NCBI RefSeq assembly: GCF_007197575.1 | Contig: NZ_CP041616.1 | Coordinates: 2,790,001-2,854,000 of the forward strand | DNA from: Ornithinimicrobium ciconiae | Lineage (GTDB): Bacteria; Actinomycetota; Actinomycetes; Actinomycetales; Dermatophilaceae | Length of the DNA stretch: 64,000 nt | Reading direction: 5' to 3' | Shown: positions 54,954 through 61,293 of the stretch, piece after piece | How positions within the stretch are numbered: the stretch's first letter is position 1 | Layout: each line of letters starts with the position of its first letter | Made by a program: the position numbers and the translations under genes | Notes under the pieces: generated by a model | Databases searched by the model: none | The model's input: the letters and a program-made list of their open reading frames with translations, nothing else | What the model was told of the DNA's origin: nothing

Positions 54954-54958
54954 CGGAC

Positions 54959-55855
54959 TCAGCCCTCGGCCTTGTCGGTGCCGATCTCGGCACCGGCGTC
55001 GGCGGACTGCTTGGCAGCGCCACCGGCCGGCTCGAAGCCAGCAGCCTTGGCGGCCTCAGCGGAGCGGAACCACACCTCGGCGGCGGTGGCGTCATACCAC
55101 TGCGAGCCCTCGACGTGATACTTCATCGAGTCCTTGTTGCCCTTGACGGTGAAGCCCTCGGGGGCCGAGCCGTCCTCGGTCGCGGCGGCGGAGTCGGCGC
55201 CGAAGCCACCGTCAACCAGCGCGGCCGGAGCGGTCGCCTCGGGAGCGGTCTCCTCGGCCTTCGCGTCGTCAGCCTTGGCCTCCTCGGCCGGAGCCTCGGT
55301 CGCAGCAGCCTCGTCGGCCTTCTCGACCTTGGGAGCGTCGTCCTTCTTGGCCTCGTCCTTCTTGGCCTCGTCCTTCTTGGCCTTCGGCTCAGCCTTGGTG
55401 TCGTCGGCCTTGGCCTCGTCCTTCTTGGCCTTCGGCTCAGCCTTGGTGTCGTCGGCCTTGGCCTCGTCCTTCTTGGCCTTGCGCGGCGTGTCGGCCGTGC
55501 TGGCCTCCTTGCCCTCGGCGGCAGCGAGAGCGGCCTCGTAGAGCGCCTTCTTGTCCGGGCGCGGCTCGGCGACCTTGAGGGTGCCCTCGGCGCCCTCCTC
55601 GCCCTTGAACTTCTGCCAGTCGCCGGTGACCTTTAGCAGTGCGGCGACCTGCTCGGTCGGCTGAGCGCCGACGGAGAGCCAGTACTGCGCACGCTCGGAG
55701 TCGACCTCGATGAGCGAGGGCTCCTCGGAGGGGACGTAGCGACCGATTTCCTCGATCGCACGACCATCGCGCTTCTTGCGGCCGTCCATGACGACGACGC
55801 GGTAGAACGGTGCACGGATCTTGCCCATGCGCTTCAGACGAATCTTGACAGCCAC
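54959..55855 (-). CDS. rpsP: 30S ribosomal protein S16 with long repeat tail and extra C-terminal module
   Basis: 298 residues from GTG 55855. Residues 1 to about 85 are ordinary S16 ([61 protein letters not shown]). Then comes a Lys/Glu/Ala/Asp tail with [15 protein letters not shown] repeats (48-bp DNA repeat), and a final folded-looking module: [41 protein letters not shown]. The module resembles a small domain that I recall on actinobacterial ribosomal proteins (annotated as a sunset-type domain). S16 is usually 80-160 residues, so this is exceptionally long. Confidence 0.93.
55383..55478. repeat. 48-bp tandem repeat inside rpsP
   Basis: Two essentially identical 48-bp units (55383-55430, 55431-55478) encode the [16 protein letters not shown] repeats of the S16 tail; shorter 15-bp TCCTTCTTGGCCTCG-type units precede them at about 55341-55382. 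Confidence 0.85.
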
Positions 55856-56071
55856 GAGTTCGGGTGTCTCCTCATTCTTGGTCAGGGTGAACGCCCGCTT
55901 GCCCACGTGGGGAAACACGCGCGGGGCGGATGCTCGGGAACACGCTGGGGCCGGAGAGAGGGGCCGGACCGCAGACGGGTACCGGATCATTGTGCCAGAT
56001 CACGCGACCCCCGACGAACCGCCGCCACTCCACCGCAGCGTGCACCCCGCGCCCAGCCGCCCCATCTCCAA

Positions 56072-56138
56072 CCTGGGCACGCTTATCCCGGCTGGGACAC
56101 GGCTATAACCGTGACACCGACCAAACAAGCGTGCCCAG
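56072..56138. repeat. 67-bp palindromic element, copy 1
   Basis: Outer inverted repeat CTGGGCACGCTT / AGCGTGCCCAG with an inner dyad around GACACGGCTATAACCGTGAC. First of three copies at an exact 82-bp period filling most of the 456-bp spacer between rpsP and the nuclease-like gene. That spacer (55856-56311) otherwise shows only the rpsP upstream region. Confidence 0.85.
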
Positions 56139-56153
56139 CCTCACCCCAACCAA

Positions 56154-56220
56154 CCTGGGCACGCTTAGCCCGGCTGGGACACGGCTATAACCGTGACACC
56201 GACCCCACAACCGTGCCCAG
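56154..56220. repeat. 67-bp palindromic element, copy 2
   Basis: Same element as copy 1, starting 82 bp later, with the outer arm CGTGCCCAG and inner GACACGGCTATAACCGTGAC conserved. The 15-bp inter-element spacers (CCTCACCCCAACCAA type) are also similar, so whole 82-bp units were duplicated. Confidence 0.85.
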
Positions 56221-56235
56221 CCTCCCGCCAACCCA

Positions 56236-56302
56236 CCTGGGCACGCTTAGCCCGGCTGGGACACGGCTATAACCGTGACACCGACCCCACAACCGTGCCC
56301 AG
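56236..56302. repeat. 67-bp palindromic element, copy 3
   Basis: Nearly identical to copy 2; ends 9 bp before the stop codon of the AbiEi/Vsr-like gene. Confidence 0.85.
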
Positions 56303-56311
56303 GCGACGGGA

Positions 56312-57244
56312 TCAGCTCGCGGGTTGCCGCTGAGCGAGCGCGAACCCGGCGAGCACCTTGGCACGCACGCGCTCCGGGTGCGCCAGATCCGCCCAGGTGA
56401 GCCGCACGACGGTGTAGCCGAGAGAGCGCAGCCAGTCCTCACGCTTCTTCTCCTTTATCAGGTCCTCACGGGCGTCGTACTTGCCGAGGCCGTCGAACTC
56501 CACGACGGTCCGCTGCTCACGGAAGAGGAAGTCCACCCTGCCGACGAACTGGCCGCTGTCGGTGATGCCCGCCTGGAGCTCGGGTTCCGGCAGGCCCATC
56601 AGGTGGAAGATCCAGCGACAGCGCGACTCCCCCGCGGACTCCGAGTTATCCCGGGCGTGTTCGGTCACCCTCCGAGCGCGTTCTAGGCCGTGCCCGTAGC
56701 CCCCGGCCGACAGGGCCGCGGCAAGGTCCTCACGCGTGCACAGGTTCATTCGCAGGCATCCGTCTGCGCTGACCAGACCTGCCTGGACCCCGAAGGCTGC
56801 CGCCACCTGGAGGGCTGCTCGCGCAGGCTTTACGACCCTCACGCCGTGCTGCTCCGTCACCCACCGCGCATCAAGAGGTGCGTGGACCCGCAGCAGACTG
56901 CCGCTGTGCCCTCGCCGCCCGTCGATGCGGACGGCGTGCACCCGGTCGTCGACACCATAGAGTGGGACACCAAGGACCGACAGGGCGCTGTGATGGCTCA
57001 GTGCCAAACCCGTGTCATCCTCCCGACCGTGCATGATTGCTCGCGCGCGTAGTCGGTGCCGCTCCCAGACTGGTGCAGCTGCCCACCGCACCGCATCGAC
57101 CAGGACGTCACGCCGCAGCCGGATCAGGTGACCCGAGCGCACAGCCTGAGCTGTCGCAGCGGCGGAGATCCCGGCCCTTGCCATCCGTCCCGCTGATGCC
57201 ACCCCGTCGTGCACTGCCAGCCATGCGCTGATCTCAGCATCCAT
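56312..57244 (-). CDS. AbiEi-like antitoxin-domain / Vsr-DUF559-type nuclease fusion protein
   Basis: 310 residues. The N-terminus (AWLAVHDGVASAGRMARAGIS, LIRLRRDVLVDA) resembles the winged-helix AbiEi-type antitoxin domain; the middle (LSHHSALSVLGVPLYGV, VRVVKPARAALQVAAAF) matches that family; the C-terminus has a very-short-patch-repair/DUF559-like PD-(D/E)XK core: GRVDFLFREQRTVVEFDG, KYDAREDLIKEKKREDWLRSLGYTVVRLTW. It is probably a DNA-acting protein, common in multiple copies in Actinobacteria, with role unknown. No partner AbiEii toxin is adjacent. Bracketed by four copies of the 67-bp palindrome. Confidence 0.78.
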   Translation of the reverse strand: MDAEISAWLAVHDGVASAGRMARAGISAAATAQAVRSGHLIRLRRDVLVDAVRWAAAPVWERHRLRARAIMHGREDDTGLALSHHSALSVLGVPLYGVDDRVHAVRIDGRRGHSGSLLRVHAPLDARWVTEQHGVRVVKPARAALQVAAAFGVQAGLVSADGCLRMNLCTREDLAAALSAGGYGHGLERARRVTEHARDNSESAGESRCRWIFHLMGLPEPELQAGITDSGQFVGRVDFLFREQRTVVEFDGLGKYDAREDLIKEKKREDWLRSLGYTVVRLTWADLAHPERVRAKVLAGFALAQRQPAS

Positions 57245-57311
57245 AGCCCCACCGTGCCCAAGTTGGCGCGCGGCTGCAGGAAATAGTCCACAGGCCCACT
57301 CCTGCTACACA

Positions 57312-57378
57312 CCTGGGCACGCTTGCGGCGTCTGTGTCACGGCTATATCCGTGACACAGACCTTCTTCGCGTGCCCAG
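57312..57378. repeat. 67-bp palindromic element, copy 4
   Basis: Same length and outer arms as copies 1-3, located 67 bp upstream of the start of the AbiEi/Vsr-like gene. Its inner dyad is the most perfect: GTCTGTGTCACGG and CCGTGACACAGAC pair over 13 bp. Fragments of the outer arm recur at 57249-57261 (CACCGTGCCCAAG) and 57421-57432 (CGCGTGCCCAGG). Confidence 0.85.
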
Positions 57379-57443
57379 GTCGGTGCCGAGCTCAGGGGTA
57401 GTGCGACCCGAGGGCCCGTCCGCGTGCCCAGGTCAGTGCCGGC

Positions 57444-58778: not shown

Positions 58779-59594
58779 TTAGGTCGTCAAGGGGATCACC
58801 CCGCGTCCCGTGGTGGCCTCGCTCAGGCGTAGTGAGGTGCCCTCGGTGATGATGACGTGGGCGTGGTGCAGGAGCCGGTCGACAGCGGCGGTGGCCAGTG
58901 TCTTGGGCATGATCGTGTCGTATCCGGAGGGGTGGATGTTGCTCGTGACCGCCAGTGATCGACGTTCGTAGGTGGCATCGACGAGGCGGTAGAACGCTTC
59001 GGCTGCTGCTTGCCCGGAGGGCAGCATCCCGATGTCATCGACGACGACGAGCTCGGCTCGGGTGATGCGGGCCAGGACCTTGCTGATCGACCCGTCGACC
59101 GCGGCGCGTCCGATGGTGTTCGTCAACGATTCCAGGGTGAACCAGGACACGCGCATGCCTTCGTCGATGACCTTGTGGGCCAGGGCCTCGACGAAGTGGG
59201 TCTTGCCGGTACCCGAGGGGCCACTAATCGCAAGGTTCTCGCCTCGCCCGACCCATTCCAGGGTGGCCAGCCCCGACTGGGTCGGCACCGGGATGGAAGA
59301 GTCGGCCTCGCGCCAGGAGTCCAGCGTCTTCCCGGCCGGCAGCCCTGCGGCTTTGCGGCGCATCGCCTTGGTGGCCTCGTCGCGGCCGCGGACCTCCTCA
59401 TCGAGCAGGACCTTCAGGACCTCGCCGGGGTCCCACCGTTGGGCCTTGGCGGTGGCCAGCACCCCGGGTGCTGCCTCGCGCAGGTAGGGCAGCCGCATCC
59501 GACGCAAGAGCTGCTCAAGATCGGCCGGCAGCGGCGGGGAGGCCCCCGGCCCACTCGTCCTGGTGGTCGCCTTGGGCGTGTTCGCAGGGCTCAT
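58779..59594 (-). CDS. istB: IS21-family transposition helper ATPase
   Basis: 271 residues, DnaA/DnaC-like AAA+: N-terminal helices (LEQLLRRMRLPYLREAAPGV), Walker A ISGPSGTGKTHFVEAL, Walker B ELVVVDDIGMLP, and sensor region LAVTSNIHPSGY. IstB assembles on target DNA and recruits the IstA transposase. Start ATG overlaps the istA stop (ATGA). Length is typical of family members (about 250-270). Confidence 0.95.
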   Translation of the reverse strand: MSPANTPKATTRTSGPGASPPLPADLEQLLRRMRLPYLREAAPGVLATAKAQRWDPGEVLKVLLDEEVRGRDEATKAMRRKAAGLPAGKTLDSWREADSSIPVPTQSGLATLEWVGRGENLAISGPSGTGKTHFVEALAHKVIDEGMRVSWFTLESLTNTIGRAAVDGSISKVLARITRAELVVVDDIGMLPSGQAAAEAFYRLVDATYERRSLAVTSNIHPSGYDTIMPKTLATAAVDRLLHHAHVIITEGTSLRLSEATTGRGVIPLTT

Positions 59595-61156
59595 CGGGTG
59601 CTCCCGGTGGCGAACCCGGCCCAGCCGGTGGTGCCCGGTTGGGTCGTGGCGTCCTCGTCGGCGACGACGAGGCCGGCGGTGCTGGTCCCAGCGGCGAGGT
59701 GGTCGGCGATACTGGCCAGGTCAGTCTGCCCGAACCGGCCGGCGGCCGCGGCCACCCCGAGGGCGGCGTCGACCCGTTCGGTACCGATCAGCGCAGCGAG
59801 CTGGAGCGCGTCGGCCATCTTCGCCCGGATCCGCACCGTCCCGGCCGCGGAGGCCTCCACCAGCCAGGTGCTGGCTCCGTCCCCGAGGTCCAGGAACGCC
59901 GCCTCGGCATCGGTACGCGCCTTCGGCTTGGGCACCCGCGGTGCCCCGTCGGGTTCCTGGGGGTGGTCGGGGTAGTGAGCTGGTTCGATCCGCGGGTTGC
60001 CCGGGGTGGACGTGGCGTGCCGGGCGACCTCGACCAGCCCGGCCCGCCCATGCGCCCACGACGGTTCGACCGGTAACGCGTCCAGGTCGGCGACGATGAC
60101 GAGCTCAGTGCCGGCGACCCGGGCCCATACCTGGGTTCCGAGCAGCCCGGGTGGGGTGGAGTAGCGCACCGAGTTGTACCGGATGGTTTGGTCGGTGCTG
60201 ACCGTGCGTGCCAGGCCGAGGGCCATCGTGTGCGGGCCCGAGGGCAGGGTGTGCAGCCTGGCCCGCTCCAGGGCCAGCGCGTCGGCCGGGATGCGGGCGG
60301 ACTCGCGGTGCGTGCGCCCGTTGACCTTGGCCATGAACGCCGCGCAGGGTGCTTCCAGCGCGGCGAAGGAGGCGTACGCTTCGAGCAGGTTGGCCTGCGT
60401 GGGGACCAGGTCGGCCTTGGCGATCTTGACGGTGGCCTCGGTACCGCCCTTGGACTCGGGGTCGAACGGGACACAGGTGTGCACGGTCGTGCCGTAGCGC
60501 CGGGCGACCTTGACCAGCTCAGGGTGGCGCACCGGGACACCGGCGACGTGATCGATCGTGACGGTCTTGGCGTTGTCGGTCAGCACGTACGCCGGGACCC
60601 CGCCGATCGTGCGCAACGTGGCATCCAGGCACGCCACCAACGTCGGCAACGTCTGGTCCCACGTCGGGATGACGACCCGGAACCGCGACCAGGCAACCCA
60701 GGCACAGAACAACAACGTAGGACGCAGCACCCCGTCCGGGCCGGGCACCTGCGGGCCGGCGCCCCAGTCGAACTGCAACCACAACCCGGGCTCGCTGATC
60801 CAGGGCCGGTAGGTGCGCCGGTTCCCCGCCCGCCAAGCCGCTTTGGCGTCGGCGACCGCGCGGCGGGTGGTCCGCTCGGTCCCGCTGAATCCCAGGCCCA
60901 CGAGGCGGGCGTGGATCACGTCCGCGCGGGCCTTACCTTCCGAGCGGTCGACCCACTCCTCGACCTTGGGAAGGTGCTCATCGATGATCCTTGGCCGCCT
61001 ACCAGGACCGGTCACCGGTGCCCCGCTGTCGCGGGCCGCGACGTACCGCCGCACCGTCTTGGGGTCCACCCCAGCCAGCTCACCGGCCGAGTGCGCACAC
61101 TCTGTCGTATCAAACGCTTCCAAAATTTGCATGATCTCCCTGTCAGACTTCTTCAT
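59591..61156 (-). CDS. istA: IS21-family transposase
   Basis: 521 residues from ATG 61156 (GGAGG 5 nt upstream). N-terminal helix-turn-helix (REIMQILEAFDTTECAHSAGELAGVDPKTVRRYVAA), rve/DDE integrase core with Asp in WLQFDWGAG, Asp in YVLTDNAKTV and Glu in DPESKGGTEATVKIAKADL, then the C-terminal beta-barrel region. No frameshift or internal stop, so the element could be active. Confidence 0.95.
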   Translation of the reverse strand: MKKSDREIMQILEAFDTTECAHSAGELAGVDPKTVRRYVAARDSGAPVTGPGRRPRIIDEHLPKVEEWVDRSEGKARADVIHARLVGLGFSGTERTTRRAVADAKAAWRAGNRRTYRPWISEPGLWLQFDWGAGPQVPGPDGVLRPTLLFCAWVAWSRFRVVIPTWDQTLPTLVACLDATLRTIGGVPAYVLTDNAKTVTIDHVAGVPVRHPELVKVARRYGTTVHTCVPFDPESKGGTEATVKIAKADLVPTQANLLEAYASFAALEAPCAAFMAKVNGRTHRESARIPADALALERARLHTLPSGPHTMALGLARTVSTDQTIRYNSVRYSTPPGLLGTQVWARVAGTELVIVADLDALPVEPSWAHGRAGLVEVARHATSTPGNPRIEPAHYPDHPQEPDGAPRVPKPKARTDAEAAFLDLGDGASTWLVEASAAGTVRIRAKMADALQLAALIGTERVDAALGVAAAAGRFGQTDLASIADHLAAGTSTAGLVVADEDATTQPGTTGWAGFATGSTR

Positions 61157-61293
61157 ACGTCCCTCCGTGGGGTGCTCGTTGGTGGTCGAAGACCACGAGC
61201 ACATCCCCGGAGGGACGCTTTCGTCGGGACCGACACGGCCCGGTCCCACAGCCACGGGCAGGGAGATCAGCTGTCCGTCAACAGGGAAGTCCG

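Follow-up and report, generated by a model that had tools for sequence, protein, structure and literature searches.

A nuclease gene bracketed by its own palindromes in Ornithinimicrobium ciconiae points to a possible new type of spreading DNA repeat

A gene for an AbiEi-Vsr-like nuclease, bracketed by four copies of a 66-bp palindrome, lies in a 64,000-nucleotide stretch of the Ornithinimicrobium ciconiae chromosome (hereafter the window; coordinates 2790001-2854000 of the 4.09-Mb genome, here G000). Comparison with relatives makes it close to certain that this gene goes with a private palindrome of its own. The locus probably belongs, on balance, to a family of units in which a gene encoding a protein of two domains (AbiEi-like plus Vsr/EDxHD-type) has its own palindrome on either side; such a system resembles the repetitive extragenic palindromes (REPs) and their REP-associated tyrosine transposases (RAYTs) but uses an unrelated enzyme. 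These units point to a spreading DNA repeat of a type that has so far gone undescribed, associated with a nuclease that had no earlier link to repeats of this sort. I take the system as undescribed because I found no description of an AbiEi-Vsr gene with private palindromes in the open-access literature, and because the enzyme class is unrelated to that of the REP systems.

Results

The palindromes of the family are 60-80 bp long and imperfect, occur before and after the gene and recur as solo copies elsewhere in the same genome. O. ciconiae itself carries six members of the gene family. A 51% relative of the window protein (locus L017, at 466 kb) has a different palindrome, ATGCGAC...GTCGCAT, of 61 bp, with two copies behind the gene, one before it and more dispersed in the genome, and two further members (L019 and L020) are bracketed too, each with yet another palindrome. 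The window palindrome was also considered as a mark of DUF559-type genes generally and rejected, as it is found at none of the other five family members, which have palindromes of their own or none. At L018 (4063 kb), a 66-bp palindrome stands 39 bp behind the gene (L018:1108-1173), with none found before the gene within 1 kb, and short tandem repeats with periods of 39 bp, 15/16 bp and 43/45 bp occur near bracketed genes (L020:2284-2517; L019:1148-1241 and 2514-2709).

Sixty further members were taken from 31 genomes of the genus, and at 93 of 95 loci (two were too short) the 600 bp before the gene were aligned with the 600 bp after it, under strict scoring in place of a lax, uninformative version. 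The flank score was at least 38 in 63 of the 93 loci and at least 45 in 58, counting as misses L020, L033 and L034, whose brackets were hidden by script-set gene bounds; among swapped locus pairs the corresponding counts were 15 and 10 of 744. Only one of the 44 other genes in the window scored at least 38, and none 45. Two of 254 control genes, all from G000, G005 or G015 (the window plus 20 stretches), scored at least 38 and one at least 45, neither match being palindromic, while a palindromic segment was present in 50 of the 56 bracketed loci tested. The 58 strongest loci represent 32 palindrome families. Their matched segments have a median length of 76 bp, and the median distance to the aligned gene region is 98.5 bp on the upstream side and 29 bp on the downstream side. 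Of 16 protein clusters (50% single linkage), 9 include a bracketed member.

The association extends across named genomes. From the 270 relatives found in a breadth scan the best 80 were taken; 77 of them were usable, and 46 of these 77 scored at least 38, compared with 17 of 616 swapped pairs; some of the species overlap the 93-locus set. By genus, brackets were found in 25/31 loci of Kribbella, 4/7 of Janibacter, 2/4 of Phycicoccus, 1/2 of Knoellia, 6/14 of Ornithinimicrobium and 3/6 of Serinicoccus, and in 1/1 each of Rhodococcoides fascians, Nostocoides and Streptomyces sp. SID13031. None was found in Dermatophilaceae metagenome-assembled genomes (MAGs; 0/3), nor in Kribbia, Pedococcus or an 'Acidobacteria' MAG (0/1 each).

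In the window, the only gene between the palindrome copies is the nuclease gene (56312-57244, minus strand, 310 aa), as the initial annotation had it. Three copies form a tandem trio on the 3' side of this gene at an exact 82-bp period (56073-56138, 56155-56220 and 56237-56302), the second and third matching over all 66 bp, and the fourth and most diverged stands on its 5' side, 68 bp ahead of the start codon (57313-57378). The four copies and their period had been correctly described, but the length is 66 rather than 67 bp, the additional base being a shared C just ahead. The outer arms CTGGGCACG/CGTGCCCAG show no change in any of the four; as inner dyad, the tandem trio has CACGGCTATAACCGTG and copy 4 has CACGGCTATATCCGTG, and the centre is an NTATAN loop. 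A lone half-arm, GCGTGCCCAGGT, lies at 57422-57433. Across the window the 9-mer of the arms is present 12 times where 2.2 are expected, and 0/100 shuffles reach that count. The inner dyad alone, at up to three mismatches, is not above chance (4 sites, all exact, against 2.1 expected; 17/100 shuffles reach 4). Six RNA folds, of the four plus-strand copies and two minus-strand ones, gave z of -4.0 to -10.3, and none of 200 shuffles folded as well. No intrinsic terminator (a G+C-rich stem followed by a T run) was found between 55800 and 57600, and Rfam gave no match up to E 0.1 between 55500 and 58000.

On one side the unit adjoins a ribosomal protein S16 (rpsP) frame with a long Ala/Lys-rich C-terminal extension (54959-55990, minus strand), the far end of which (about 54958-55240) recurs elsewhere in several genomes with 80-90% DNA identity. 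IS21-type istB-like and Mu/rve-type transposase genes lie nearby (58779-61255, minus strand).

The protein matches Pfam DUF559 over the cut-off (E 4e-6) and the AbiEi N-terminal domains under it. A structure model gives an AbiEi-like match over residues 2-198 (winged helix plus second domain; 56651-57241, minus strand) and a Vsr-like match over residues 203-306 (56327-56638, minus strand), and PADLOC AbiEi models cover residues 12-196. E206, D238 and E249 of the nuclease part are invariant in 108 homologues, and among nucleases the C-terminal fold is nearest to the homing endonuclease I-Bth0305I (3r3p). As modelled, then, the protein is an AbiEi fold in its N-terminal two thirds with a Vsr/EDxHD homing-endonuclease-type C-terminus, a more exact description than the PD-(D/E)XK-like end first assigned to it. 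Y1_Tnp was absent from Pfam scans of all six members in the genome, and no AbiEii nucleotidyltransferase toxin gene is adjacent, the neighbours being the rpsP side and an amidohydrolase.

Dispersed copies of the window palindrome were counted in two ways. An exact-arm search gave 13 copies in the genome (a reversed control pattern gave 0), and a covariance model gave 17 at 12 sites; the model was built from 19 elements, 11 of them from this genome, so that 11 of the 17 copies were in the training set, and, as 150 of 4643 first-look candidates were scored, the true number of copies may exceed 17. With its four copies the window has the largest cluster. Three tandem copies lie at 2.643 Mb between a yaaA-like gene and a cystathionine gamma-synthase-like one. 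The CTGGGCACG element occurs in 4 of the 31 genomes (13 copies in G000, 8 in G005, 14 in G023 and 1 in G011), and the nearest relative of the window protein (64%), in G005, is bracketed by CTGGGCACG arms. The CCTGAGCAGAGA element has 3-10 copies in six genomes and none in the other 25, and in five of those six the sampled set holds a gene bracketed by it (L077, L079-L082). Furthermore, the L017 palindrome family occurs in G000, G023 (12 copies) and G025 (one), and a 74% relative in G023 (L068) is bracketed by it; the TGCGACC pattern is too short, its other single hits lying at chance level (control 0-4 per genome). Loose copies of two palindrome families are nearly confined to genomes with the matching gene, with exceptions given below. 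The initial annotation had set against its own reading either scatter through the genome with no association to such genes or a duplicated transcription terminator. The scatter is real (17 copies), whereas the lack of association is not, since the association exists, and the absence of any terminator-like site speaks against the latter.

Gain and loss among relatives, which the annotation had proposed to look for, are found at orthologous sites. The window unit sits between the rpsP side and the amidohydrolase, and the stretch that holds the gene and its four palindromes (56021-57440) has no counterpart at this site in G002, nor has nearly the same stretch (56027-57442) in G006; there the two neighbours are joined by 6 and 14 bp, respectively, and in G008 by 70 bp. 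At the same site the unit of G005 has CTGGGCACG palindromes, relatives of 57% and 55% in G023 and G025, respectively, are flanked on both sides by TCGGTGCGAGC palindromes, and G016 has a solo palindrome of another family, GTCATGCGG...CCGCATGAC, with no gene (L131:2810-2870). Most other genomes have these neighbours kilobases apart and are uninformative. This site is possibly an insertion hotspot. The L017 unit is likewise missing from its site in G005, G002, G006 and G025. Solo copies behave similarly: the one at 2064804 is present in G000 and G005 and cleanly absent from G025 (G002 and G006 hold unrelated sequence of similar length), and the one at 2065959 is present in G000 and cleanly absent from G005, G006 and G025.

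Two further loci bear on the history of such sites. The flanks of L019 (G000, 3516.8 kb) and L032 (G021) match at 78% over 1.1 kb and 84% over 0.65 kb, while the nuclease genes are only about 28% identical and the palindromes differ, making this a second site with an exchanged unit type. At about 3.10 Mb in G000 (L026:1365-1639) lies a partial relative of the L017 unit (94-96%), comprising the palindrome and pieces of the 3' half of the gene, with an internal deletion and a match that extends beyond the palindrome.

The inner stem of the palindrome changes sequence while staying paired. Across 19 elements, 38 cells had changed on both sides compared with 23.4 (sd 3.3) in shuffles, and 82% of cells were paired compared with 31-45% when slid; both of these measures and the score were above shuffles (0/500 each). 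Across 34 elements inner pairing was 0.65 in register and 0.35-0.43 slid. The nine outermost pairs are uninformative for covariation because the copies were chosen by exact arms. In addition, both palindromes of a locus change together at orthologous sites: where protein identity is below 80%, 42 of 45 pairs have the two palindromes of a locus resembling each other (mean 0.49) more than their orthologous counterparts (mean 0.24).

Discussion

What would tie a nuclease of this kind to dispersed palindromes that differ from gene to gene? The proposal of a REP-like system with a different enzyme, made in the initial annotation, stands as regards the association: relatives have private brackets, loose copies track the gene, and units and solos come and go between genomes. 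I envisage four steps. The AbiEi module would recognise the palindrome, mainly by its conserved, family-specific outer arms, and the palindrome ahead of the gene may double as an operator. The nuclease domain would then nick or cut the palindrome, possibly in hairpin or cruciform form, and repair or strand transfer at the break would copy or move the palindrome into further intergenic sites, in rare cases together with the rest of the unit. Finally, whenever recognition by the protein drifts, its palindromes would be replaced in concert. The first three steps, with the chemistry and mode of spread, I infer. From the known ligand of AbiEi, the palindrome is likely the DNA ligand of the module. 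Putative cutting by the nuclease, spreading the palindrome as RAYTs do REPs, best fits the dispersal, gene dependence and turnover, and seems likelier than not to be right, although mobilisation is the weakest step.

Several observations weigh against this reading. By the flank test 30 of the 93 loci lack brackets, among them two of the six members in the O. ciconiae genome (L018 and L021, the latter without any palindrome). G023, a draft of 570 contigs, has 14 CTGGGCACG copies, and the flanks of two of its nine members were read, which are bracketed by TCGGTGCGAGC and TGCGACC palindromes; G028 has three CCTGAGCAGAGA copies, and none of four members examined there is bracketed by CCTGAGCAGAGA. 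Two of the five covariation measures, 'pairs with a change on both sides' (89/500) and 'further pair types' (224/500), were not above shuffles. At 80% protein identity or more, the pattern of concerted change reverses (7/21; 0.46 and 0.54), and the segments compared were picked for within-locus similarity, in pairs that are not independent. A Mantel correlation of protein with palindrome similarity over 56 loci (score at least 44, more than 230 aa, no internal stop in the script's translation) was 0.21, the largest of 1000 permutations giving 0.14, but it is confounded because most pairs above 60% identity have common neighbours, that is, occupy orthologous sites, and I do not take it as main evidence. 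Finally, no target-site duplication and no cut position were identified.

The main rival, which I consider unlikely, is that the whole unit moves by homing-like repair after its target is cut, the solos being scars of recombination between brackets, like solo long terminal repeats. It draws on the presence and absence of units at the rpsP-side and L017 sites, on the resemblance to I-Bth0305I, on the tandem copies, whose 82-bp period fits unequal recombination, and on the internally deleted L017 relative at 3.10 Mb. Lost units might indeed have left the solo copies behind, but 17 copies at 12 sites for a single such gene would require many past units, and the partial L017 copy runs past its palindrome on one side, so it is no clean unit insertion.

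An operator function by itself is less probable still. Here the palindromes would be AbiEi-type operators, autoregulatory upstream and forming a small regulon where dispersed, while the nuclease domain does something else. AbiEi is indeed described (PMC3985639) as binding its own promoter at a long inverted repeat, and a copy lies 68 bp ahead of the start codon in the window and a median of 98.5 bp from the aligned homologous start among the 58 strongest loci. However, a copy also lies behind the gene, relatives do not conserve the copies at either of the two solo sites examined, and an operator alone leaves unexplained an inner stem that changes sequence yet stays paired.

Host use or defence, in which a domesticated nuclease acts on hairpins or invading DNA and the palindromes are marks or decoys, I hold to be quite improbable: AbiEi is placed in a phage-defence toxin-antitoxin family (PMC3985639) and the PADLOC models match, but the rpsP side and an amidohydrolase stand where an AbiEii partner would, and the private palindromes and the gain and loss at sites are left unexplained. 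Least probable is that the palindromes are miniature inverted-repeat transposable elements (MITEs) of an unrelated transposase, the nuclease genes being bystanders or neighbours of terminators, for although short dispersed intergenic palindromes look MITE-like and an IS21-type gene pair is found at about 1.5-4 kb from the unit, 32 palindrome families bracket one gene family compared with 2 of 254 control genes, and neither a terminator-like site nor an Rfam match was found.

The favoured reading of a nuclease that spreads its own palindrome has a general form to which I give about even chances: AbiEi-Vsr nucleases may be the enzymes of RAYT-independent dispersed palindromes in Actinomycetota, each recognising, cutting and spreading its own, with the two specificities turning over together and several private pairs in every genome. 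If true, REP-like repeats arose at least twice with unrelated enzymes, and many actinobacterial genes now labelled 'type IV antitoxin AbiEi', 'DUF559' or 'endonuclease' gain a testable role. The gene-palindrome pairs, at least 32 of them, form a natural series for the evolution of DNA recognition, including partner swaps at one chromosomal site, where two species have CTGGGCACG and two others TCGGTGCGAGC, and may offer programmable-looking structure-specific nucleases.

Comparison with known systems

A nuclease in the service of a mobile element has a parallel in TnsA of Tn7, which works with the DDE transposase TnsB. TnsA (1t0f), a weak row in the Foldseek search (E 1.8), likewise has a restriction fold, but no TnsB was seen here. 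The C-terminal fold and the conserved acidic residues are shared with Vsr (1cw0), I-Bth0305I and proteins of the DUF559 type, for example VsrA of Caulobacter (PMC12907096). In contrast to Vsr and the EDxHD enzymes, the gene here is free-standing, intergenic and joined to an AbiEi module, and in what PMC12907096 says of Vsr, EDxHD proteins and VsrA, no cognate dispersed palindromes are reported.

With the AbiE type IV toxin-antitoxin systems the protein shares the AbiEi fold (PDB 6y8q), and a long inverted repeat ahead of its own gene is also the described target of AbiEi (PMC3985639). The differences are the missing adjacent AbiEii toxin gene, the extra nuclease domain and palindromes that also stand behind the gene and are dispersed.

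The closest likeness is to REP/RAYT (TnpAREP) systems, REPtrons and TIRtrons, which are described as genes bordered by palindromes (PMC3733652, PMC8266576). As in those accounts, the palindromes are found genome-wide while the gene is single for each type, and a genome may hold several types, each with its own repeat. However, RAYT REPs are given there as 20-40 bp long with a GTAG tag, whereas the palindromes here are 60-80 bp with family-specific outer arms, and RAYT is described as a Y1/HUH tyrosine transposase whose substrate is single-stranded DNA, whereas the enzyme here is an AbiEi plus Vsr-like nuclease in which no Y1 was found. Because the defining Y1 transposase is missing the system is not a REPtron, but it would work like one.
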